In this document: in pieces, positions 1 through 47,049 of the stretch
How the letters are laid out: every line of letters starts with the position of its first letter
How positions within the stretch are numbered: the first letter of the stretch is position 1
DNA from: Siphonodentalium dalli
Lineage: Eukaryota > Mollusca > Scaphopoda > Gadilida > Siphonodentaliidae
DNA length: 64,000 nucleotides
Direction: 5' to 3'
Assembly: GCA_032622095.1 (NCBI GenBank)
Contig: CP136063.1
Coordinates: 82,065,980-82,129,979, forward strand
Notes under the pieces: generated by a model
Seen by the model: the letters and a program-made list of their open reading frames with translations, nothing else
Told to the model about the DNA's origin: nothing
The model's database searches: none
Program-made: the position numbers and the translations under genes

Positions 1-511
1 TGTGTCTCAGAAGGTTCCCAAGAAAACTAGAACATAGCTGAGATCATAAAATAATTTCCCCCGTGATGGCTCCCAGAATGCAACATAATTAAACTACAAT
101 CTATTTTCAATGGATTGGGAATAACTCTAAATATATACAGTTATTTCCCTTCCATTGAAAATAATACTTCGTGTAGAAACTTCAGAACAGACGTCTGTTT
201 CTCAATAAAAACAACATGTTCACAGTTTATTACATCGAATAAGTTGAAAATATTACATCGAATATGGCATATATTTTATATAATGTGATCTGGGGGGTTC
301 GAAAATTAAGTGGGCCTTTAAATGGTACTCACGGCCAGGGCTGCAGCTTGAATTTACAAATTCCAACTGATACCTTACTCCCTTTACCCAACAAACCTGC
401 CAAATAAAGCTTCAACAGCCTAAAATATTTTCGGTCTGTCTCAATAGAACCATACAAATATGGATATCATTGGAACCGGCTCCTTGACCACATTGTGATA
501 GTTACAGTTAT
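1..511. other. AT-rich sequence, nothing recognised
   Basis: Only short scattered stop-free stretches are present. No conserved motif, hairpin or repeat shared with the rest of the window was seen. Confidence 0.5.
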
Positions 512-743
512 GCCCTGTGCCAATGCATTCTCTTATATATGCGAGTCGGCCATAGGTCGCCTCGCATATATAAGAGAATGCATTGGCGTAAAAAAAATAA
601 AAAATTTAACACTTTTTACCATTTTTTCTTACATTCTTTAACAATTATATAATTTTTAATGTGTTAAGCCAATGCATTCTCTTATATATGCGAGGCGACC
701 TATGGTCGACTCGCATATATAAGAGAATGCATTGGCACAGGGC
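512..743. mobile_element. Palindromic MITE with two internal hairpins
   Basis: The element is bounded by a 15-bp inverted repeat (GCCCTGTGCCAATGC at 512-526, its complement at 729-743). Each end folds into its own near-perfect 69-bp palindrome (519-587 and 668-736) built on TTCTCTTATATATGCGAG and its complement. An approximately 80-bp AT-rich spacer without coding capacity separates them. A related degenerate pair lies at 22599-22733. No transposase or clear target-site duplication was seen, so the superfamily is not assigned. Confidence 0.75.
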
Positions 744-2503: not shown

Positions 2504-3350
2504 TTAGGATTAAAATTTTCCACTGTTTTTTATGCATTCAACCTAACACCTATAATTGGAAAATTACAACTGATGGACATTTAATTTTGAAATTTGGACT
2601 GAAATTAAGTCGTAGTCTATTCGAATCTTAGTCTAAAACCGACATATTTTATTTATTGAAGATATTGCTTGAAAACTGTATAACAATCGGAACAATTTCA
2701 AGCTATTTTCGATCTGAAATTTCCAATTGGTTCTGATTCTCGCTTGGTGGGGGGATTTTCCCAATCAATGTCTGCTGTTGCATGAAACAGTGGACGAAAG
2801 GTGGACAGACAGTTCGAACAGAGGTAAAACTTGCCTTTCAAGATGGTTCCATTGTTATATTGTTTCAAACTGGGCGAATAGGATGGATGATACATTTTAT
2901 TTTACTTGAAAATATGTAAAAAAAAAAGGGACTTGAGCCACGATTAGATCGTTAAATGATGTGCACCTAAGACGCGTATACGTACGGGGAATCCCGCCGA
3001 GCCTAGGCGGCTTTTAGCCGAGCTTTTTGAACTCTTGGTTCGCCTGATTTGTGTTTCCACGTCATCATACAACGAATGCACGCTAACAATGTTCTTGTTG
3101 GACCAGATTGGCGGAAGTACGGTTTGCGTCGAAGTCTTTTGGACCAACGACTCTCGACGTCTGCTCACGGGCTCTCGACGTTTGGTCGTCTTCTTTTTGT
3201 TCTGTATGGGTGGCAATGACATAACGAAGCAACATTGCAAGCCGTTCTCCTGTAAGTTTAATTTAAAAATAAGATGGCTTATTTGAACAATTAATGGCAT
3301 AACTTTGAAGGTGATATAGGATATGTGCATATATCCACGGTTACGTAGCG
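2504..3350. other. Unannotated AT-rich sequence
   Basis: No domain, hairpin or repeat shared with other parts of the window was recognised. Stop-free stretches at 2698-2909 are short and present on both strands. Confidence 0.4.
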
Positions 3351-4645
3351 TTTTTCCGAAGACCCATAACTCCGAAGGTCCGATTCTCCGAAGGTCAGAT
3401 TCTCCGACGCCCCGATTCTCCGAAAGCCCATAACTCCGAAGTCCCGATTCTCCGAAATCCCATAACTCCGAAGACCCATAACTCCGAAAGCCCATAACTC
3501 CGAAGGCCTATAACTCCGAAGGCCTATAACTCCGAACGCCCATAACTCCGAAGGTCTATAACTCCGAAGGGCCGATTCTCCGAAGGCCCGATTCTCCGAA
3601 GGTCCGATTCTCCGAAGATCATGTTTTATCGCTTATTAAATAGTGTACAGTCCAGTGGCGGGGTCAATGGGGCCCTAGGGAAGACGGCCCCCAAAAAACA
3701 TGTCAAATGTCATGTAAACGTCAGGAAATCCCTCCTAGGCATTCAAATATTCACAGTGTTCCTGCCCAGTGGAGCCCCCGGACCAACGATTGGGGGCGAC
3801 CCCTCCCATGTATGCGCTCCCCAAATCAGGCCTTCGTGATAATGCTTTCGGCATATCATATGCATGATATATATCCCCATATATCCCCCACATATGCTAA
3901 TTAATGTGCACCCCTAAATGGGAACCCTGGCGCCGCCACTGGTGTGCACCGGGTATATTATAACGAAACGCTGCAAGAATGTCAGAGTAGCCTAACATGC
4001 ACAGGGGCGACTAGTTCTTCCCCGTTCACCCCAGTACATTTTACTCTGGCATCTCATGGGCCAACGTAACGTTATAGTATCTGGTGTATAGTCAGTTGCG
4101 GGCCAGGATTCCCATTTAGGTGGGGGGCAGTAGGAAAAGTTTGAATATTTTGATGCCCCATGAACGATTTCCGGGCGTTTACATGACATTGGACATGTTT
4201 TGTTAGGGGCCCATATTGTCTGAAATGGCAAGTAGAGGTTTAATGGGGGCAGTGGGAATTTTGGGACCCCTTGGCTTCGCCACTGGACTGTACACTATTT
4301 AGTAAACGATAATACCCCGGTAAAACAAAATCTTCGGAGAATCGGACCTTCGGAGAATCGGGCCTTCGGAGTTATGGGCCGTCGGAGAATCGGGCCTTCG
4401 GAGTTATAGGTCTTCGGAGAATCGGCCCTTCGGAGTTATAGGTCTTCGTAGTTATAGGTCTTCGGAGAATCGGCCCTTCTGAGTTATGGGGTTTCGGAGA
4501 ATCGGATCTTCGGAGTTATGGGCCGTCGGAGAATCGGGTCTTCGGAGTTATGGGCCGTCAGAGAATCGGGTCTTCGGAGTTGTGGGCCGTCGGAGAATCG
4601 GGTCTTCGGAGTTGTGGGCCTTCGTAGTAATAGGTCTTCGGAAAA
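3351..4645. mobile_element. Foldback-like element with 16-bp minisatellite arms
   Basis: The left arm (about 3351-3620) is a tandem array of a 16-bp unit in two variants, CATAACTCCGAAG and GATTCTCCGAAG plus three spacer bases. The right arm (about 4330-4645) is the same array inverted. Inside the arrays a further inverted repeat continues (about 3620-3680 against 4270-4330, and about 3685-3790 against 4100-4220). Long inverted arms made of tandem repeats are the hallmark of foldback transposons. Stop-free frames through the arrays exist because the unit lacks stop codons; with a 16-nt period they repeat as 16-residue peptides and are not genes. Confidence 0.75.
3652..3942. mobile_element. hAT-like MITE nested in the foldback centre
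   Basis: The left end reads CAGTGGCGGGGTC and the right end is the complement of CAGTGGCGGCGCC, terminal repeats typical of hAT-type MITEs. Flanking GTGTACAG and GTGTGCAC could be a decayed 8-bp target duplication. A related end (complement of CAGTGGCGAAGCC) lies near 4283, so more than one such copy may make up the middle of the foldback. Confidence 0.5.
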
Positions 4646-5321
4646 CCGGTCTCACACCCTGTCCAATCAGCTCTTGTCCTATCATTGCGAACGGATACCT
4701 ATACCAGTGTCACGCGGAGGCCTATTAGTGTCAGTGCATGCAAACGAGGACAATCCGTGCAGCTATAATTCTTATATATGGGCCATATTTCGATGGACTC
4801 ATTATATAATGAATTTAGCTAATACGATTGTAACATTGTTCTAAAATGGTAAACTGATGGGTCTAAAGTAAATTAAAATTCGAACATGTATATACAAGGC
4901 CGACGATAATCAAAGTTAGTGGAATATTCTGTTTATAATAACGAATTTGGTCGATAATAGTACATATTTTGAGGTACATGTACAAATTCTCAAAACTTTT
5001 TTTAGTCGTACATGTACATGCAAAGTCATATACAAATTTTCCAGCCGTTTTCATTATTTCGCACATAAGTTCAAGAAACTCTCTTTATTACCATGCATAT
5101 AAGGCAGTGGTAGCCTATACCGGAAACGCACTTTGTTGTTCCATGCCAAAGACAAATCGGGACCTGACTTTTCTTAATTATATGGGCACACAGAGAGAAT
5201 CCATATTATTAACCAAATATACAACCATACAACCATACAGAATCCATATTATTAACCACAACTATTTTAATCACGAAAATGAGCATTCCTTGCCATGCAT
5301 ACTTTCGGGCTTCAAGCAGCT
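4646..5321. other. AT-rich sequence, nothing recognised
   Basis: Contains short TACATGTACATG palindromes near 4975-5015 and no supported gene. Confidence 0.4.
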
Positions 5322-26513: not shown

Positions 26514-27414
26514 GCATGCTACATACCCTATATCACTGAGGAATTTTAACTAATAGTTTGTATTACTACAGAGTAACATTGGTCTGTATCAGGTGCAAAT
26601 ACTTGTATATATGTAGCAATTATATTATATACTATAGCTGATGTGTCCGACTTCTTCCGGGCTATTTAGCGATTTCTTTACCAGAAACATGCATATGAGC
26701 GTATATGAGCGAGGTCAGGGTCAAGGTTTCACCAGATAAATTCTTTGTTGAAAATCTCTTGCCAATTTGGCTGGATCTATGCAATATCATAGTATATCGC
26801 ATGCAACACCTTTTATATCAGTAAAAAGCCATTACATATTTTCTTATCTCTCACTAGCTACATATCACTTGGCATCGCGCCAACAAAATGACCGCGCGTC
26901 TTTACATTGATTCAGGATAAATACGATTTCGACAAGCCGCGCATGACACCAACACCATACAATGCACAACGATTGCTTTGTTCGTTAAAATAAAATTATT
27001 GTCCAACCTCGTTGCACTAACGAAAATAGACACAAAAACAAAGAGGCAAATTGGGGGACCATATTGTCGCGTCTGAATCAACGCTCTAAATGTGTGCATT
27101 TTGCAGCTTCTTCTAAGGATTTTGATTTGTTAAAAATGCATAAAGCTCCAGTTTTTCTCATGTGATATACAAGATCTTCAACTCGTTATGTTGGCATATA
27201 AGATTTTATGAAACTCGTTTGATAAAATCGATTCACAACTCGTCTACGACTTGAAGATGCACTCAAATTAAAGTCCACTAACAGAATCAGTGTTAAAACC
27301 CCTTGAGTACCCGCTGGAAGATTTAAAGAATTCCTTTCCGGCGTAATGGAAGGATGAAGCTTGCGGTGCCACTAAGGAAGAATCAATTGCCGGGGTGTCA
27401 TTATGACGTACATT

Positions 27415-27580
27415 GGGGGAGGGTCTTATTCGTTCAGTCGGACGAGTCATAGGGGAGGGTTTTATTCGTTTTGTTTGGGAAAGCATGCTAAGGGAGGGTC
27501 TTGTTTGTTCAGTTGGGAGAGCTGTCATGTGAGGGTCATATTTGTTGGACGTGGACTGTGAGGCTGTATTATTCGTTTTT
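27415..27580 (+). promoter_or_regulatory. Upstream tandem repeats, candidate promoter region of gene copy 1
   Basis: Five degenerate copies of GGGAGGGTCTTATTCGTT occur every 30-40 bp (about 27416, 27453, 27492, 27530 and 27560), ending about 130 bp before the start codon. The same series precedes gene copy 2 (about 43710-43855). The stretch from the repeats to the ATG, including TAATTAGTTGCCCACACCAT, is strongly conserved between copies. No TATA box was seen. Regulatory function is inferred from conservation and position. Confidence 0.4.
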
Positions 27581-27708
27581 GTGTTGGGCGTGGTAGATCG
27601 AATGATCTTCTTCGTTTAATGTTGAAATAATTAGTTGCCCACACCATCTCGTGTTCACAAATCAGTTATTGTAACCTGAAGTTGTTCACTTGCTTCGAAA
27701 AAACAAAG

Positions 27709-28041
27709 ATGGCCGGCGGAGATTTCGCGAAGATTGCCATCTTCTCAGCTCTGACAATGTTAACTGTTTTCGGAGTTAATGCAGAATATTCGAACGACAA
27801 GTTCCGTACCGTAAAGAAGAAATTTGGCGGTACCATGGGTACGGGTTGTGGGTATCATGAGGAGATTCGCGCGCGGAGCCGTATTGCATGTAGCACTGCA
27901 TGTGCACAACATGGCCAATGCAATTCTGCTAATGCTATCAAGGACGACACCGGATATAGATGTGTGCTTTCATCATACCATACCAGCTTGAACTCGGACT
28001 CTCTCGTGGATTCTGAGAACTCGACATACATGGAAAGAGAG
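27709..28041 (+). CDS. PAN/IgGFc protein gene copy 1, exon 1 (signal peptide + PAN-like domain)
   Basis: The ATG (AAAG-ATG-GCC context) begins an N-terminus with an alanine/leucine-rich hydrophobic core and an expected signal-peptidase site after VNA at about residue 25, so the product should be secreted. Residues about 40-111 form a small cysteine-rich module with Cys at 47, 61, 65, 71 and 85; the phrases RIACSTACAQHGQC and RCVLS and an aromatic/acidic end resemble PAN/Apple domains, which bind proteins or carbohydrates. An N-S-T sequon lies at about 104. The exon is 333 nt (111 codons) and ends GAG before GTCAGT, a usable donor in phase 0. Reading on would give only about 11 more residues, and that tail is not conserved in frame in copy 2 because of a 1-nt indel, so I place the splice here. 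I infer it joins exon 2 at 34121. Without splicing, a secreted protein of about 122 residues would result. Confidence 0.72.
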
Positions 28042-28939
28042 GTCAGTATTAAATGTTATATGAGAAATAAGAGATGAATTGTATCCTAAATGTGTAATCA
28101 GAGTTCGAGGCTAATTATTTACAAAACCTAATTTACTTCGGGTTTTAGGTGGCCAATGTTTCCACCCACACATAGTTAACAGTTCCTGAGAGATGTGAAT
28201 TCAAATGACTGGATGCCACTGAACTGCAATCAGTGTAAACTAGTCATTGTTTAGGCAACATATATACTGTTGAGATTCAAAGAGGTCTACATGTAAAACT
28301 AGTACATCAGAATTATGTGACATGATTGTGTTTGAACCGAAAAATATTTCTAAAATCTTAACTAAATCCAAATATTAGTGAATTCTTCCGACAATTAAAC
28401 AACAGAAAGATAATATTGTACTTTATCACTGCCTACTAGTTCCAGTAAATTCACCACAGTAGAGAACATATGAATTTTATTTGAAAAGTGTTGTAAAAAA
28501 TGTGTTAATAAATACTATCTTTTCCTGCTAAATTAGCCAATACCTTCAATTTTTAAGCGCTACAACTTTTCGGTTAATCCATGAATATGAGGATATAGCT
28601 TCAATTATGGAAGATTAAGTTTCTGAAAACAATTGCCGTGACCATCAGTGTTGAAACTATTAGCCGTATGTGCGTTACTTTAACTTATAGTGTAACATGT
28701 TTGGAACAAGAAGCGGTACACCATGAAAGGAACACCAACATTATCTTGTTATTTTTTCAATAAGAAAATGACATTCTTTTGTATTATGTCTAGTTTATAC
28801 TTGAAATTTTGCCTTTAAACAGTATATACAAAGCAGAAAGCGATGTGAAATTAAAATTGAAATATACTTACATGTGTGATGAAGATTTTTCAACCGACGA
28901 TGTCGTTATATTGATAAAACGTATTTTGTGAATTTTAAT

Positions 28940-29365
28940 TTAAAGGTATACTCAATCCGATCAGACCCTCATAAATTACTATTTCTTTGGCTTCGGGGTT
29001 AAACAATATTTGATTCGAGTCGAGGAACTTACCCATCAACGCTCAGAGTGAACAGATATAAATTTTTGAAGTTTTGTGATTTCTATTGTTTGTGGCCCAG
29101 AAACACGCGGTCAATATGATGGTCTCGGTCAAAATTGCGTTATTGTTAACCATTTTATTTTAGAGTTATCCATCTTCGTCCGTTTGAATAAGTGTTTCTA
29201 TGGCAATTATTAGTACACATCTCGAGAAATAACAATCTTCAAAAATCAATATCTCATCACTCTGAGCTTTGATGGGTGGGTTCCTCGACTCGAATCAAAT
29301 ATTTTTTACCCCTGAAGCAAAGAAATAGTAATTTAGGGGTGCTTAATCGGATTGAGTACCTTTAC
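28940..29365 (+). mobile_element. TTAA-inserted MITE family B, copy in intron
   Basis: TTAA (28940-28943) is followed by AGGTATACTCAATCCGATCA and the body matches the intact copy at 24132. The right end reads ATTGAGTACCT followed by TTAC, so the right target copy has changed by one base. Confidence 0.75.
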
Positions 29366-30679
29366 CGAGGCGCTTTCCACATAGTTCTACATTGCCGTTT
29401 CAAGATTTACGTTCTGTCCTATTTCTTTTTCAATATAGCATAGTAAATAAGTGTTCGGATTGAGAAAACGTGGTCTTTTCATTTATGCATTTGTGTTGTT
29501 TGGTCCATAAGATTTCCTGGTAAATCAGACACTAGGTGTGCATATGGCCAAACATTATTCTACTTAAGAATTGATGTTGATTTGCTTGCGTTCCATAGAG
29601 TATGCGTTCCACACATGAAAATGTCTGACCAACTTGCATCCATACTCTATGGAACGCAACAAAATCAACATTCATTATTTATATTTACACTCAACCGAGT
29701 CAACTGGCAGATTAAAAGAGTTTTAAGCGTCCATTTCCAACGTTATTATCGTGGCTCGGAGCAAGTTGCGTCTACACAAAAATGGATGCAAGTTGGGGTC
29801 AGCGCGCGACGTCATGTGACGTAATTTCGACCAACAAATGTCCTGCATTCATGTTCCACAATAGGAATACACGTGTGAGTGTAAATATATGTATATAGAT
29901 AATGCTATCTCCTGCAAAATAAACACTTACAAATGAATAATTACACCCACTTCATTCTCTATAGTAAATTGCCGTTGAGTTTATCAAAGCTAATGTAATT
30001 ATATCGGATAATTACATTAGGTCGAGATTTTATCAGTGCAACAAAAACGACCCAAAAGTACTTGAGCGCAATGATATTTGTAGTCCGTTGCATAGTAACT
30101 AAGGACGCTATTTTCTTCACACACGCTTCGCATGCAGTACACATTTTTTTTCACGAACGGTATGAAAGCCAATAAAAGAATAATAAATAGATATCCAAAT
30201 AAAGACAATGCCGCAATGAAATAAACATTCCCAAGCTGTTTGCATAGTATAAATTTGGTCGTATTTGCGACGTTTCGTTTCGAAATGCATGGCTAAACTT
30301 ACACAACTTTTTTGTTTTCGTTTTATTTATTTACATTTTCACACCGCATAGGGTATGTCGATCATATGCATTATGATTTTTGAAAGACCACGGGAGCTAG
30401 GAACTTGATCAAATTGATCAACCACTGCCTTAATTAGGCTAATTAGCAATGTTTTGGTCATAATGCTGGGCCAACATTTGCTAATAAAAGGAAGTTATTG
30501 ATCAAGTTCCAAACTCCAATGGTATATCGGTAAGACCGTCACAATTTAAGTCCATGCATGCATGGTACCGTACATTATAATTTTCTGTCATGTCAACAAT
30601 TTATAAATTATATATATACTGTGATGAAATTTTTAATTATTGTTTACAAATATTCCCAAACATTGTACCCAGTCCCCTA
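29366..30679. other. Intronic sequence with small inverted repeat
   Basis: TTGCGTTCCATAGAGTATG at about 29585 pairs with its complement at about 29641-29659 around a 36-bp loop. The phrase AATGCTATCTCCTG near 29903 recurs at about 31930. No exon is recognised. Confidence 0.45.
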
Positions 30680-30750
30680 GATCATGCCATGAATCTCCAC
30701 TCTGGCTGATGCCCGTGTCTACGTCGTTAGCTAGAGTAGAGATTCATGGC
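30680..30750. repeat. Short palindrome, compact relative of the 6.1-kb composite ends
   Basis: GATCATGCCATGAATCTCCA on the left is paired with TAGAGATTCATGGCA on the right. The same sequence forms the outermost ends of the composite at 11114-17186. Confidence 0.65.
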
Positions 30751-30979
30751 AAAGTTTATTAAATTTGGTTTCATAGCTTCGGGAAAAACCCACTCGATCT
30801 ATCAATCGATCGATATTATTCGGACGGAAACGGGGCGAGTTGTCATCGGCTCAAGTCGTATTCGGACAGTGACTCTGTTACGGTCCGTTATTTGAGAACA
30901 TTTAGTTCCTTGTTTCAACCGTCTTTTAAGGGCGAAAATGTTTTTAAAATCAATATTTAACAATTAATGGTATAATTAT

Positions 30980-31132
30980 AAGGAATAATCTCGGGTTCCT
31001 AATGTAATTACACAGTCTAAAGGCATATGCCGAATCACAAACTCTTATAAATCGCTCGCGATTTATAGGTTTGTGACTCGGTATATGCCTTTAGACTATG
31101 TAATTACATTAGGAAACAGAGATTATTCCTTA
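30980..31132. mobile_element. Near-perfect 150-bp hairpin element
   Basis: AAGGAATAATCTC at the left and its complement GAGATTATTCCTT at the right enclose arms that pair almost completely, including AATGTAATTACA and AAAGGCATATGCCGA segments. The centre contains CGCTCGCGATTTATA. It has no coding capacity. Confidence 0.8.
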
Positions 31133-32762
31133 AGCATTACTGTAAACATGTTTTGGCTGCTACAAAGAGAGAATTATCACTACCATTTATCTGAAAATGC
31201 CCAGGTTTAGCCACTCGTATGTGTAACCTGTGTGTGTTGCTAGTGCATTGATATGGAGGTGCAAATATCAGCCCATCTTATTGCTAAACGTGTCTAAAAT
31301 AGGCGGATAGTTAGAACAAGCGGTCGCCACTTCGTCGACTCGATCAAACTAAGATTCTTCGGTACAGGAAAATACCATTATCCCACTTCATGCATAGCGT
31401 TGGCAGCTCGTTCGGTTGTTAGAATATTGGATATTCCTCTTTGCTAAAAGTTTCGTATCCCACACTTTGAACACAAACATCTGCATGGAATGACTCTGTA
31501 CGTGTACGCAAAAAAAAAAAACAACAACAAAAAGGTCACATGAGTCAGCTGACTTTCGTTGGTAATAGCAACACACGTTACAAGTTGCACGTAGGCGTAA
31601 CTGACTATGGATAATAGAGACCTTTCGCAAAACTCACGTTTACGATTACGGATACGAATAGGGTACTACGTCACCAACATGTGTGTACTTTCTAACCGTT
31701 GTCGTATTTTACTATCCGTAAGAACGGTTACGATTTCAGGGTTTCCATAATAAGCTCAAATACCACGTGAAATTTATTTATATATAACTCAGTTCGAGAC
31801 TGGTCATTATATCTCATGTAACCGTCCAGTTATATTGAGCTATGACCTCGGTGTGCTGTTTAGATTGGCAATCACTATGTTCGTCGTCATGAATCACGAG
31901 CTTCCAGCGAAATAAGATTGCTATTCACAAATGCTATCTCCTGGAAAATAAACACTTACAAATGAGCATTACTGTAAACATGTTGTGGCTGCTACAAAGA
32001 GAGAATTATCACTGCCATTTATCTGAAAATGCCCAGGTTTAGCCACTCGTATGTGTAACCTGTGTGTGTTGCTATTGCATTGATATGGAGGTGCAAATAT
32101 CAGCCCATCTTATTGCTAAACGTGTCTAAAATAGGCGGATAGTTAGAACAAGCGGTCGCCACTTCGTCGACTCGATCAAACTAAGATTATTCGGTACAGG
32201 CAAATACCATTATCCTACTTCATGCATGGCGTTGGCAGCTCGTTCGGTTGTTAGAAGATTGGATATTCCTCTTTGCTAAAAGTTTCGTATCCCACACTTT
32301 GAACACAAACATCTGCATGGAATGACTCTGTACGTGTACGCAAAAAAAAACAACAACAAAAAGGTCACATGAGTCAGCTGACTTTCGTTGGCAATAGCAA
32401 CACACGTTACAAGTTGCACGTAAGCTGACTGACTATGGATAATAGAGAGCTTTCGCAAAACTCACGTTTACGATTACGGATACGAATAGGGTACTACGTC
32501 ACCAACATGTGTGTACTTTCTAACCGTTGTCGTATCTTACTATCCGTAAGAACGGTTACGATTTCAGGGTTTCTATAATAAGCTCAAATAACAGGTGAAA
32601 TTTATTTATATATAACTCAGTTCGAGACTGGTCAATATATCTCATGTAACCGTCCAGTTATATTGAGCTATGACCTCGGTGTGCTGTTTAGATTGGCAAT
32701 AACTATGTTCGTCGTCGTGAATCACGAGCTTCCCGCGAAATAAGATTGCTATTCACAAATAT
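31131..32762. repeat. 832-bp-period tandem duplication in intron of copy 1
   Basis: CATTACTGTAAACATGTT starts at 31135 and again at 31967, and the two units of about 800 bp differ by few substitutions and short indels (for example AAATACCACGTG against AAATAACAGGTG). A short linker with AATGCTATCTCCTGG, copied from near 29903, sits between them. The two minus-strand open frames (31388-31630 and 32220-32405) are the same duplicated stretch and are not genes. Confidence 0.88.
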
Positions 32763-33599
32763 AGGTATCCCTGGCTGCAGACGACACAAAGCCAGTCTCC
32801 AAAAAATTGTCTATTTGGTAGCGAAAACGTTTCAGCATGGTGCACATCGCGTCGACTTTGATTCGATTCGATAGGACCATGCAAATCAGAAGTGATGCCC
32901 ATCAGAGCACATCAAACGTTTGTCGCATTTTATAAAGAGGTGATAGGCCTGTGAAACCGAAATCGCCTTCAAATCAACCGCGGACATGAATGGGCTTTGA
33001 ATGACGGCGTCGTGGTTTATGTCAGATCCAAATCTAGAAACCCCTCTTCCCCCATTGTGTCTATCAGATCATCCATGCTAACAACGCACTGAATTTCCAC
33101 CAAATATGACCTGGCATTTATACATGTATTGCCACAATATATTGCGAGAATCCCGGGTCGTACGTTGTGATTGGTCATATATAGTATTGAAAATACGCAG
33201 GTCATGATTATCGTAGTGTTGGAAATGAGACGCAACGTGAAGTTTTAAGGGACTGTATACCAAACACGCGCTTAGAGTTGTAAAAGTGGTACGAAATAAT
33301 GATGGTGCATTTTCGTCAAAACTCTTATCCATAGTCGTTTTGCGAAAGGACGTTTTGGCCATACGGATAGATTTACGGCTACCAATATCTATCCGTATTC
33401 GTAATCGTTAATGTAAGGATGCGAAAGGTCTCTATTAATGCTGAACCGACACGGGATTTAGTGATTACCAAGTGGGAAAAACTCACCCTACCTGATCATT
33501 CCGAATACAAATCGTTATAAAAAAGAATGCAAGTGAAGGATTAAATTTAACGACACGTTTGCACATGTAAAAGACTTGTTGAAATTTATCGGTTCCTAG

Positions 33600-34010
33600 T
33601 AACACCGATGGTCAAGTGGTCCTGTTGATTTGCTATGGTGTTGGTTGGACAAACTGATGCTGTTAAGAACATGTACCGTTATTTTTTCTAAAGTTGTCAT
33701 TTTCATAGCGTTTAGCTAATCTGAACGAATTTAAGAAAAGCCATTATCTGAACGAAACAATCACGAACCGACATACTTTTCTAAAATTCAATAATAACAG
33801 CGCCGATACTTGATTATGATCCAGCACACCCATTATTATTTTTTTTTTATAACATTTTTATACACGAACGGCTTTTCCTCGGTTCGTTCAGATTAGTCAA
33901 ACTAGTCACAATTATGACAACTTTAGAAAAAAAATAACCGTAAATTTGCGTAACAGCATCAGTTTGGCATCCCAGCATCATATCAAATCAGCATGACCAC
34001 TTGGCCGGGG
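33600..34010. mobile_element. Hairpin MITE G beside the exon 2 acceptor
   Basis: Outer ends GGTCAAGTGGTC and GACCACTTGGCC are inverted. Inner arms pair ACAAACTGATGCTGTTA and TTTTTTCTAAAGTTGTCA with their complements at about 33905-33975. Copy 2 has no such sequence at the matching place (after TTTATCGGTTCCTAGTAA, about 45720), so the insertion came after the duplication. Confidence 0.72.
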
Positions 34011-34120
34011 GAGGGGTGAATGTGGCCACCTCATCCCCCCTTATATAGTGGTAGCTTCGCGGATCGCAACTCCTTAAAAAAGTCCACGACACAATTCAAC
34101 GACTAATACTTTGGTTTCAG

Positions 34121-35350
34121 ATACAATATACAACTATCATGATGGGGGTCATTGAATGCGGCGCCACGCCAGCTACCTACAACATACTGGTTACGACCAA
34201 CTCGCCAACGGGAGCTTGCGTCAGCATAACCAGCCCAAACAACGGAGCGCCGATGTCTATTGAACTCATAGTACCACCAATGGGATCCGCGATGGCAACT
34301 CTTGACAACAGCCTCGTCCCAACGAGAGGTGTCATTGAAAGAAAAGGGATCTCGATATCTTCAAAAGATGAAATAGTTGTTTATGGAATGGTTAATTTCC
34401 TGCTCTCAAGTGGTTTGTATGCCGCTCTTGTTGATAATGAATTGGGGGAGAACTATTTCGTGTCAACGTGGCTTGATGCTCCACAATACGGCTCACAGAT
34501 TGTTATATCATCGGGCAGCGACAACAACGCGGTGCAAATCGAGTTTCTGTTACCAGTATCTGCCAATGTCATGTATAATGGTGTTTCATATCAATCTGGA
34601 GATATAATTAACATTGAGATGAACACATTTGATGTTCTCTACCTGTTCGCCAACTCAGATTTTACAGGGACTCATATAATGGCGAGTCAACCAATTGTTG
34701 TTGTAAGTGGCAACATCTGTGTTTATATAGATACAAACACGTGCGACATGGTTTTAGAACAGATGTCACCAGTTGAGCAATGGGAAACCGAGTACATGAC
34801 TGTGCACTTCCCATTTGGGGACAAAGATGATTACTATCAAGTTGTTGCCAGCGAAGCAGTCACGTCCGTTTCTGTTGACGGATCTGTGCAGTGGACAAGT
34901 TCATATGCAGGTGACATGAAAACATTCACCCTCCCTGTTAATGATTATCATACAATCACAGCATCGAACCTGATCATGGTAACCCTCTTCAGTCCAGGTC
35001 AAAGGTCGGATGGTCTCGGAGACGCATTCATGATGACGGTAATAGGACAGAACAGATACAAAAATGATTACAATTTCAAAACTGCGGACTGGACCGATGT
35101 CACTTATATAAGTTTTCTATCTGTCGTTGTTGACCAGTCAGACCTACCCGGGATGATACTAGACGGCCAGCCACTCACGACATACAGCGCCGCCACGAGA
35201 ACATATCCAGCCTCTCCCGAAGTCGTCTGCGTTGAGCTCGAGATCAATTCCGGTTCACACAGTTTGTATCACGAGAACAAAGCTGTGCATTTCGGGGCGT
35301 ACTTGTTTGGAATTGAGGACATGGAAGGAGTCGGGACAGTCATTAGATAG
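34121..35350 (+). CDS. PAN/IgGFc protein gene copy 1, exon 2 (IgGFc-binding-type domain)
   Basis: This 1230-nt exon opens in phase 0 after ...TTTGGTTTCAG and encodes 409 residues to a stop at 35348-35350; joined to exon 1 the protein is about 520 residues. It matches the IgGFc-binding protein N-terminal domain of FcgBP-like secreted mucosal proteins: a VYGMV strand phrase, LGENYFVSTW at about residues 219-228, a SGDI motif, DFTGTHI with a following VVVSG at about 291-308, and LEQMSPVEQWETEYM at about 323-337. Cysteines in NICV, TCDM and VVCVEL are shared with copy 2; two further N-terminal cysteines are not. Relative to copy 2, six codons are missing near the exon start, between repeats of CAATA(T), and about six extra residues occur near 232-258. 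It has no transmembrane segment or other domain. An internal ATG at 34139 could start a shorter leaderless product, which I think less likely. The role is inferred as extracellular, probably mucus or defence related. Confidence 0.82.
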   Translation: MQYTTIMMGVIECGATPATYNILVTTNSPTGACVSITSPNNGAPMSIELIVPPMGSAMATLDNSLVPTRGVIERKGISISSKDEIVVYGMVNFLLSSGLYAALVDNELGENYFVSTWLDAPQYGSQIVISSGSDNNAVQIEFLLPVSANVMYNGVSYQSGDIINIEMNTFDVLYLFANSDFTGTHIMASQPIVVVSGNICVYIDTNTCDMVLEQMSPVEQWETEYMTVHFPFGDKDDYYQVVASEAVTSVSVDGSVQWTSSYAGDMKTFTLPVNDYHTITASNLIMVTLFSPGQRSDGLGDAFMMTVIGQNRYKNDYNFKTADWTDVTYISFLSVVVDQSDLPGMILDGQPLTTYSAATRTYPASPEVVCVELEINSGSHSLYHENKAVHFGAYLFGIEDMEGVGTVIR

Positions 35351-43994: not shown

Positions 43995-44315
43995 ATGGCC
44001 GGAGATTTCGCGAAGATTTCAATATTCTCAGCTCTGACACTGTTAACTCTTTTCGGAGCTAATGCAGAATATTTGAACGACAAGTTCCGTACCGTTAAGA
44101 AGACCTTTGGTGGTACGGGTTGTGGGTACCATGAGGAGATTCGTGCGCGGAGCCGTATTGGATGTAGCACTGCATGTGCACAACATGAACAATGCAACTC
44201 TGCCAACGCCATCAAGGACGACACCGGATATAGATGTGTGCTTTCAGCCTACCATACCAGCTTGAACTCGGACTCTCTCGTTGATTCGGAGAACTCGACA
44301 TACATGGAAAGAGAG
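43995..44315 (+). CDS. PAN/IgGFc protein gene copy 2, exon 1 (signal peptide + PAN-like domain)
   Basis: 321 nt, 107 codons, ending GAG before the donor GTCAGT in phase 0. The signal peptide ends after ANA at about residue 24. The PAN-like module keeps all five cysteines (43, 57, 61, 67 and 81) and the RCVLS phrase. Compared by eye with copy 1, 98 of 107 aligned residues are the same, and copy 2 lacks four residues (one Gly near the start, three in the Gly/Thr stretch before the first Cys). After the donor the two copies differ by a 1-nt indel (AAATGTTTATATG here against AAATGTTATATG), which would change a read-through C-terminus and supports splicing. It is inferred to join exon 2 at 45820. 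Confidence 0.72.
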
Positions 44316-45819
44316 GTCAGTATTAAATGTTTATATGAGAAATAAGAGATGTATTGTATCCATAAGATGCATTCAGGTTTCGAGGCTAATTATTTACAAA
44401 ACCTAATTTACGAGGTTCAGCATATGTTTACATTCATAGTGACGTGCGTGTGGACCTTTTACAACAATATCTCAATCGAGTTCGAAAACGAGGTTTGTCA
44501 GATTTTTAAACCTGAGTTACGGCCCTTGGTTTTGTCTAATTGTATTAGCAGTTATAACGCGATAACTTGAACAAACGTCAACCGATTCCATTCATATTGG
44601 GTGTATGGATCTTTCTCAACAATATTTCGATTGTGTTTGAAAACCAGGTTTGTCCTTTTTTTTTTTTTAACTGAGTTACGGTCCTTAGTTTGTCGATTTT
44701 TAAAAACAATTTTATGACCGCTAGGGTGATAACTTAATTGCACAAACGTCAACCGATTCCATTCATATAGGGTTTATGGATCTTTCACAACAATATTTTG
44801 ATTGAGTTAAAAAACCAGGTTTGACCGATTTGTATTTATTTGAGATAACACCCTTATTTCTGAGCTATGGTTCCTTAGTTTGTTAATTTTTGGTGATTCT
44901 TGGTCAGACAGATTCGCTTTTATGGGCCAAAAAACAAACAAACAAACAAATAAACTCGACGAGAGCCATCTTTGATGCGCAACCCTTGTTTGGTGTTGTA
45001 ACTGGATGCCAATACTCCTGAATACAAATTATAAATACGATTCTTCGGCACAGGCAAATACTATTCTCCTATACTTCCCACATAGAATTGGCCACTCTTT
45101 CGGTTGTTAGGCGATTGGATATTGACAATGACAATCACCAGACAATCTGGACAAATAAGGGCAATTAAACCACAAACTAAATTATCATGCAGAGGTTTTA
45201 CCCAAACATTACATTTTCAAGATTATGGAATGAAACCGAGACAGTGTTATTTAATCGCCTACATAATCATAACTATACATGTATATGTACATAATCCAAT
45301 ATTTTGATATTATAAATTCCGGTATTTCGATATTTAGTTATTAGCACCTCAACTTGAGGTTATGCCATTGGTAAATTACTTATTATATTGATAACGGGAT
45401 GACAGGAAGACAGACAATCCTGGTTATGCCACGCCCTCACAATAATTACACCTGTTTTTTTTTTAGTTATTATTGTTGCTAATTATTGTATGAATGAAAC
45501 ATACCATACCATGAATATGAATTCTTCTATACTTGAATTATTATTTCGTATGGCTGTCGTCTGCTTTTATTAATTGAACACCCGTCAAAATGAATAATGA
45601 ACCGTTCCAATGGATATTTTCATAACTGAATAGAGATACAATTTAGTATGGAAATGATTAAATTTATCGACACATTTGCACGTGTAACATACTTGTTGAA
45701 ATTTATCGGTTCCTAGTAAAGTGGTCACCTCGTCGCCACCCTACATGTATATAACGGTAGCTTCGCAAACCATTGAAGAAGTCCATGCCACAATTCAACG
45801 ACTAATACTTTCTTTTCAG
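44316..45819 (+). other. Inferred intron of gene copy 2
   Basis: 1504 bp from GTCAGT to ...CTTTTCAG, with CTAAT 18 nt before the acceptor as in copy 1. It contains a block at about 45030-45120 that matches copy 1's intron (TTCGG(C/T)ACAGG, CTTTCGGTTGTTAG-type phrases), showing that the introns are homologous. Confidence 0.62.
44420..44890. repeat. Tandem repeat, 173-bp period, about 2.5 copies
   Basis: AACGTCAACCGATTCCATTC occurs at about 44575 and 44748, each followed by TATGGATCTTTC, CAACAATATTT and AAAACCAGGTTTG. A partial third unit precedes them. This is intronic in copy 2 only. Confidence 0.75.
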
Positions 45820-47049
45820 ATACAAGAAGATGTGCCAGTTCAATATGATTCTATCTTGATGGGAGTGTTTGAAAGCTCCTACACGCCGGTGAAGTACAAC
45901 ATACTGGTTACGACCAAATCGCCAACGGGAGCTGTCGTCAATATAACCATCCCAAACAACGGAGCGCCGATGTCGATAGAGCTCGTAGTACCGCCAATGG
46001 GATTCGCGATGGTGGTGCTTGACAACAGCATCGTCCCAACGAGAGGTGTCATTGAAAGAAAAGGGATCTTGCTCTCGTCAAAGGAAGACATAACAGTTTA
46101 TGGAATGATCAATCGTCAATACAATAGTGGTTTGTTTGCAGCTCTTGGGGATAATGAGTTGGGGCAGAACTACTTCGTATCGACATGGACTTATGACTCT
46201 CAAATTGTTATCACATCGCGCGGCAACAATAACACGCTGCACATCGAATTGTCATCATCCGCCAATGTGTTGTATGATGGTCTTTCGTATAGTTCTGGGG
46301 ATATAATCAACATTGAAATGAATAAATTTGACGTCCTCTCCTTGTATTCCAGCTCTGATTTCACAGGGACACACATAGAGTCATGTAAACCTATTTCGGT
46401 TCTGAGCGGCAGTCGATGTGTGACCATAAACACGGCAATGTGCGACATCGTTGTAGAGCAGATACCACCAGTTACGGAATGGGAAACCGAGTACATGACC
46501 GTGCACTTCTCATTTGGAAATAAAGCTGATTACTACCAAATAGTTGCAAGTGAAGTAGGCATTTCCGTGTCGGTTGATGGGGTAGAAGTATGGACAAGTT
46601 CATATGCAGGTGACATGAACACATTCACTTTCCCTGTTAATGAATACCATAAAATCACAGCGTCAAACCTGATCATGGTAACCCTCTTCAGTCCAGGTCA
46701 AAGATCGGATGGTCGCGGAGACCCATTTATGATGACAGTAATCGGACAGAACAGGTACAAAAATGCTTACAATTTCCAAACTGCGGACTGGGCCGATGTT
46801 ACTTATATAAGTTTTCTGTCTGTCGTTGTTGACCAGTCAAACCTACCCGGGATGATACTAGACGGTCAGCCACTCACCACATACAGCGCCGCCACGAGAA
46901 CCTATCCATCCTCTCCCGATGTCGTCTGCGTTGAGCTCGAGATCAATTCCGGTTCACACAGTTTGTATCACTCGAACAAAGCTGTGCATTTCGGGGCGTA
47001 CTTGTTTGGAATGGAGGACATGAACGGAGTCGGGACAGTCATTAGATAG
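45820..47049 (+). CDS. PAN/IgGFc protein gene copy 2, exon 2 (IgGFc-binding-type domain)
   Basis: 1230 nt, 409 residues to a stop, beginning in phase 0 after ...TTTCTTTTCAG; with exon 1 the protein is about 516 residues. It carries the same IgGFc-binding landmarks as copy 1: VYGMI, LGQNYFVSTW, SGDI, DFTGTHIES with VLSG, and VEQIPPVTEWETEYM, then the long conserved C-terminal part (LFSPGQRSDG, DGQPLTTYSAA, HFGAYLFG). The frame is also open for 99 nt upstream of the acceptor back to 45721 by chance, and that stretch is intron-like when compared with copy 1. By eye the first roughly 110 residues match copy 1 at about 75%, the middle at about two thirds, and the last roughly 127 at about 91%. AATAAA at 47348-47353 is a possible polyadenylation signal. 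A secreted role in mucus or defence is inferred from the family only. Confidence 0.83.
   Translation: MQEDVPVQYDSILMGVFESSYTPVKYNILVTTKSPTGAVVNITIPNNGAPMSIELVVPPMGFAMVVLDNSIVPTRGVIERKGILLSSKEDITVYGMINRQYNSGLFAALGDNELGQNYFVSTWTYDSQIVITSRGNNNTLHIELSSSANVLYDGLSYSSGDIINIEMNKFDVLSLYSSSDFTGTHIESCKPISVLSGSRCVTINTAMCDIVVEQIPPVTEWETEYMTVHFSFGNKADYYQIVASEVGISVSVDGVEVWTSSYAGDMNTFTFPVNEYHKITASNLIMVTLFSPGQRSDGRGDPFMMTVIGQNRYKNAYNFQTADWADVTYISFLSVVVDQSNLPGMILDGQPLTTYSAATRTYPSSPDVVCVELEINSGSHSLYHSNKAVHFGAYLFGMEDMNGVGTVIR

Follow-up and report, generated by a model that had tools for sequence, protein, structure and literature searches.

The IgGFc-binding domain is best known from FCGBP, a large vertebrate mucus protein. 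In the FCGBP of toad and human, an N-terminal IgGFc domain is followed by VWD-C8-TIL units, and the protein carries GDPH cleavage sites (PMC10206775). Here we describe a 64,000-nucleotide stretch of the genome of the scaphopod Siphonodentalium dalli (assembly GCA_032622095.1, contig CP136063.1, positions 82,065,980 to 82,129,979 of the forward strand; hereafter, the window), in which two exons very likely form one gene for a predicted secreted protein of about 520 residues composed of a signal peptide, a four-cysteine PAN-type module, and an IgGFc-binding-type domain. Like FCGBP, the predicted protein would be secreted and has an IgGFc-binding domain close to its N terminus, but FCGBP has VWD, C8, and TIL repeats and GDPH sites, whereas the scaphopod protein ends after the IgGFc domain and has a PAN module in front (PMC10206775). 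A Pfam scan of both exons gave no VWD, C8, or TIL match, and exon 2 ends at a stop codon. Lacking VWD-C8-TIL units, the predicted protein is not an FCGBP.

Two other groups of proteins invite comparison. Limpet adhesive and abalone shell proteins that were named by BLAST after IgGFc-binding protein are likewise secreted and molluscan, but the domains listed for them are VWD, EGF, C-type lectin, or chitin-binding domains, with no PAN among those listed (PMC7333891, PMC6003135). The PAN/Apple secreted proteins share a signal peptide and a four-cysteine PAN module, and exon-1-like PAN exons are numerous in this genome; the window genes differ from them in that PAN is joined to IgGFc_binding. No paper naming a combination of PAN and IgGFc-binding domains was found in the open-licence literature.

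Copy 1 of the gene lies on the plus strand. Exon 1 (27709-28041, 111 codons) opens with a signal-peptide-like start of 25 residues, judged by eye (27709-27783), and continues for 86 further residues that hold the PAN-like module (Pfam stretch 27826-28038; core cysteines C61, C65, C71, and C85). It ends in phase 0 at AG/GTCAGT, the donor occupying 28042-28047. The predicted intron (28042-34120, 6079 bases) contains a candidate branch site, CTAAT, at 34103-34107, which may possibly have such a role, and closes with the acceptor TTTGGTTTCAG. Exon 2 (34121-35350, 409 codons plus TAG) follows TTTGGTTTCAG in phase 0 and encodes the IgGFc-binding-type domain (Pfam stretch 34436-35311). In copy 2, also on the plus strand, exon 1 (43995-44315, 107 codons; PAN_1 E = 0.007 over 43998-44315), the intron (44316-45819), and exon 2 (45820-47049, 409 codons plus TAG) repeat this plan. 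Summing both exons, the predicted proteins have 520 residues for copy 1 and 516 for copy 2. A first-pass annotation had drawn exon 1 as a signal peptide plus PAN-like module ending in phase 0 at 28041, with a 409-residue IgGFc-binding-type exon in phase 0 after a proper acceptor about 6 kb downstream and the same plan with a shorter intron in copy 2 (1504 versus 6079 bases), and each of these elements held up.

The identity of exon 2 is clear. Exon 2 of copy 1 matched IgGFc_binding (PF17517) at 152.6 bits (cut-off, 25.6; E = 1.9e-44) over model positions 9-297 of 297, and exon 2 of copy 2 matched it at 159.9 bits (E = 1.1e-46). Three exon 2 cysteines are conserved in all eight aligned copies; as this number is odd, a bond to another chain is possible. 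Because invertebrates are not known to have immunoglobulin G, the name IgGFc_binding should not be taken as a function. A search for phage relatives of exon 2 gave no match, and NCBIfam gave no name for exon 1 and one match for exon 2, far under the cut-off.

The same two exons recur elsewhere in the genome (2.23 Gb in nine contigs, with the window on contig C3). A search with the exon 1 protein returned 12 close rows, all on C3 and at E = 6.5e-11 or better; two of these are frame-shifted pieces of one copy, leaving 11 loci. The exon 2 search returned ten close loci at 63 to 100% identity, the next best being at 38% or less. Ten of the 11 exon 1 loci are paired with their own exon 2, downstream on the same strand and 0.5 to 12.4 kb away; the eleventh (L018, C3:91.53 Mb) is a truncated, unpaired exon 1. 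Six of the genes form an array of about 114 kb at C3:82.09-82.21 Mb, and the other four lie on C3 at 74.0, 91.55, and 224.3 Mb (two genes). The recurrence noticed in the first-pass annotation was real and extends beyond two copies: ten exon 1-exon 2 pairs are present. In four of the ten genes, a decayed second copy of the last 30 or so exon 2 codons and the start of the 3′ flank stands just downstream of exon 2 (L012, 2705-2821; L013, 4306-4415; L014, 5074-5204; L015, about 405-532, minus strand), seemingly the product of a local duplication long ago.

Splice-site comparisons among the copies bear on whether the exons are joined. Phase-0 donors of the form GTnnGT are present in 10 of 10 copies (eight GTCAGT, one GTCGGT, and one GTTAGT). 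At the aligned place, each of the ten exon 2 copies is preceded by a phase-0 acceptor ending in AG, which reads TTTCAG in seven copies and, in one copy apiece, TTCCAG, TTTTAG, and TTACAG. Past the donor, the first 40 intron bases match copy 1 at only 9 to 21 positions in six of nine copies and at 34 to 37 positions in the other three. Exon 1 could instead be a separate short secreted PAN peptide ending at the in-frame stop at 28077, with exon 2 in another transcript, as the frame of copy 1 stays open for 11 codons past the donor and exon-1-like PAN exons also occur away from IgGFc exons. However, this read-through tail varies from copy to copy, in both length and sequence, whereas GTnnGT is present throughout, exon 2 begins directly after a phase-0 acceptor with no conserved start codon, and the order and strand of the pair are kept at 10 of 11 loci. 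The stand-alone peptide, whose tail lacks conservation, was set aside as scarcely probable. No other conserved upstream exon was seen for exon 2. In the two-exon gene, moreover, no middle exon is needed, because the intron of one copy is 479 bases long and the two most diverged copies (L016 and L017) show DNA likeness to copy 1 in the two exons and nowhere else. In the nine copies with both exons on one stretch, the shortest intron has 479 bases and the longest 6079, and comparison between copies found no conserved coding block in the copy 1 intron. A conserved middle exon in the window subfamily was set aside on the diverged-copy comparison together with the 479-base intron. Still, further exons might exist and the PAN and IgGFc parts be pieces of a larger protein: in several other branches of the family, a phase-0 PAN donor faces a phase-1 IgGFc acceptor, which requires at least one exon in between. 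The window subfamily has phase 0 on both sides, a start codon stands in exon 1 and a stop codon in exon 2, and the short intron and the diverged copies speak against added exons, so that we consider a larger protein very unlikely.

Both exons look like real coding exons under purifying selection. Median ratios of nonsynonymous to synonymous divergence (dN/dS) were 0.27 for exon 1 (36 nonindependent pairs from 9 copies) and 0.33 for exon 2 (28 nonindependent pairs from 8 copies). No diversifying selection was seen in exon 2 of seven copies, where none of 20 overlapping windows reached a ratio of nonsynonymous to synonymous differences (pN/pS) of 1 and the highest was 0.67. The two-exon PAN and IgGFc-binding gene put forward in the first-pass annotation is supported by the pairing of exons gene by gene, by conserved splice sites whose phases match, by purifying selection, and by its recurrence in a wider family (described below), and we infer that both exons are very probably coding exons of one gene joined by the predicted splicing.

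The two exons may have partly different histories. Across the ten genes, exon 1 and exon 2 distances are correlated (r = 0.85; 30 of 5000 shuffles as high), a result that depends on the two 224-Mb genes. Each exon rejects the tree of the other (approximately unbiased test, P = 4e-7 and 0.0014), in a comparison in which exon 1 offers about 330 bases and support inside the group is 29 to 84%. The most economical reading is an exchange of exons, or gene conversion, between genes. Such mutual rejection is also what exon exchange in a fast-evolving immune recognition locus under positive selection would produce, and a tandem array of many copies fits such a locus as well, but the low dN/dS of both exons and the pN/pS values, all below 1, run counter to positive selection and make an immune locus of this kind unlikely.

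Several results weigh against the two-exon PAN and IgGFc-binding gene. Among the eight genes other than the 224-Mb pair, exon 1 and exon 2 distances disagree (r = 0.20; 830 of 5000 shuffles as high), which fits exon exchange but would not be expected if the two exons were simply inherited as a unit. Frameshifts disrupt three of the ten genes, in exon 1 of the fifth array copy and in exon 2 at 91.55 Mb and 224.27 Mb. Sequence searches of solved structures found none related to exon 2 and, for exon 1, two matches (E = 0.56 and 1) that we take as chance. Finally, exon 1 of copy 1 matched PAN_1 (PF00024) at E = 0.0016 and 18.7 bits, under the cut-off of 21.4, and in one of nine exon 1 copies PAN_1 gave no match with an E value up to 1. 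With 16.6 bits, exon 1 of copy 2 likewise falls under the cut-off. The Pfam check suggested in the first-pass annotation therefore gave a match for each exon, that of exon 1 being subthreshold.

Exon 1 probably is a PAN module, although the match is weaker than the first-pass annotation implied; two sets of relatives, many of which pass the PAN_1 cut-off, decide in favor of it. Of the 20 best exon 1 matches outside the subfamily (E = 0.0017 to 0.63), 9 pass the cut-off and 17 match at E up to 1. Among 20 PAN-like exons upstream of other IgGFc exons, which were chosen for that position and include several near-identical exons and one (L056) without a close partner of its own type, 16 pass and none of the 20 has an E value above 0.024; these are 20 of the 27 such exons in hand, with L062, L074, and L075-L079 outside the Pfam scan. 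Within the subfamily, PAN_1 matches with E values up to 1 occur in eight of nine exon 1 copies, the best being 3.9e-4. The pattern C-x3-C-x5-C-x13-C, which we take to be the PAN core, is present in all nine intact exon 1 copies and aligns with the cysteines of the 20 PAN-like exons. The first-pass annotation had counted five cysteines in a PAN-like module; the module stands, with four conserved cysteines, the one at residue 47 being present in four of nine copies.

PAN and IgGFc families both look strongly expanded in this genome, as judged from profile searches. The PF17517 search gave 107 matches. The PAN_1 search gave 1853 candidates at first look; 150 of these were scored, every one of them above the cut-off, so that there are at least 150 PAN_1 matches. 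At C3:83.45 Mb (L089, minus strand), an exon-1-like PAN exon is followed by open frames that appear by eye to be a second PAN-like (1900-2193) and an EGF-like (1063-1326) frame, both on the minus strand; PAN starter exons of this type may thus begin other multidomain genes.

Pairing of PAN-like with IgGFc exons extends beyond the window genes. The 107 search rows, after removal of 10 short fragments and merging of 4 fragment pairs, represent 93 IgGFc loci. The cleaner test, an unselected one, used all 150 rows from one PAN query: upstream on the same strand, a PAN-like exon lay within 80 kb of 22 of the 93 loci and within 30 kb of 10 of the 93; the 22 pairings draw on 20 distinct PAN-like exons. 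Over 500 shuffles of position, the count averaged 0.30 and peaked at 4, compared with the 22 observed. In the same test, a PAN-like exon on the opposite strand lay upstream of 1 of the 93 loci, and one on the same strand lay downstream of 8, the latter fitting the next gene of an array. With a pooled and partly selected list of 146 PAN loci, 29 of the 93 were paired within 30 kb, against 0.07 expected, and 10 had a PAN locus downstream on the same strand. That list took 32 of 57 exon 1 search rows (two of them pieces of one copy) and 43 of 103 and 76 of 150 rows of further searches. Three rows of the 150-row search (two at C6:109.9 Mb and one at C2:161.4 Mb) were added out of rank order, as were C9:174.24 and 174.42 Mb from the 103-row search, which are also among the 150-row entries taken in order. 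Without the two C6:109.9 Mb pairs, the pooled pairing within 30 kb is 27 of 93.

Six IgGFc exons and five PAN-like exons are interleaved in alternation at C9:174 Mb, where the sole minus-strand gene has a minus-strand PAN-like exon. In 16 upstream regions of 5.6 kb belonging to distant IgGFc exons, a PAN-like exon was found in two (L050 and L053); these were the top two matches to the exon 1 profile (E = 0.07 and 0.22, neither significant by itself) and proved to be exons at C8:128 Mb and C3:86 Mb that encode a signal-peptide-like start and a PAN module. For other branches, the PAN-like exons came from the genome search alone and lie farther upstream. For the remaining loci of the 93, no PAN-like exon was found with the queries used, a result that does not imply absence. 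The window genes belong to a ten-gene subfamily on one chromosome, within a family of about 90 IgGFc loci; on the 5′ side of the IgGFc exon, members of this family often have a PAN exon. It is possible, if doubtful, that PAN-IgGFc proteins are a large undescribed class of secreted recognition proteins, with an old gene plan kept over about 90 IgGFc loci and arrays that swap exons to yield new pairings. A PAN exon at C5:146553840-146554124 (L056) is 87% identical to the C8:128 Mb exon, and the first IgGFc exon downstream of it lies at a distance of 24.6 kb and belongs to another branch; this PAN exon may be an orphan.

Splice phases differ outside the window subfamily. The best-scored IgGFc acceptor, by a crude score, was in phase 1 in 16 of 16 regions, with phase-0 ties in L039 and L042; the top site of L039 lies inside the exon. 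PAN donors were best in phase 1 in L055, L056, L058, L059, and L061-L063, tied in L057, and a close second in L053; in L050, L064-L074, and L076-L079 the phase-0 site scored best, and in L075 the phase-2 site did. No PAN donor was found in L060, the frame of which is broken. Among partners of the phase-1 PAN group, a phase-1 acceptor was best or tied in L081-L084 and L086 and ranked second or fourth in L085 and L080. Matching phases make direct joining of PAN to IgGFc feasible in two ways, in phase 0 (the window subfamily) and in phase 1 (the phase-1 PAN group). Other branches probably have at least one extra exon between the PAN and IgGFc exons, and the PAN-IgGFc link is less sure where phases are mismatched.

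The window genes most likely encode a secreted protein that serves in adhesion, mucus, or barrier recognition, though the details are quite uncertain. The protein may share a mucus-linked role with FCGBP. We tentatively propose, as a scheme that falls somewhat short of probable, that the PAN module would bind a ligand, either protein or glycan, and the IgGFc domain would anchor the protein in secreted mucus or extracellular matrix, and that the outcome would be surface adhesion or barrier recognition. A compact, multicopy protein with an IgGFc domain and a single PAN module is a small unit for testing what the IgGFc domain binds. The arrangement would also help annotators to join genes whose first exon sits kilobases from the IgGFc exon and which may now be missed.

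Other features of the window are minor. DNA at 27501-27708 (plus strand), upstream of copy 1, is common to several copies by blastn and may be promoter and/or 5′ untranslated region. Matches begin at copy 1 position 27501 for copies 4 and 5 and L014, at 27511 for copy 6, and at 27248 for copy 2; in the 224-Mb copies, blastn found no conservation of this stretch. No RNA gene was detected in the window by Rfam at gathering scores. At 2944-4844, open frames on both strands consist of short repeats rich in FG, SYG, and SELW, and these are probably a minisatellite that happens to stay open.

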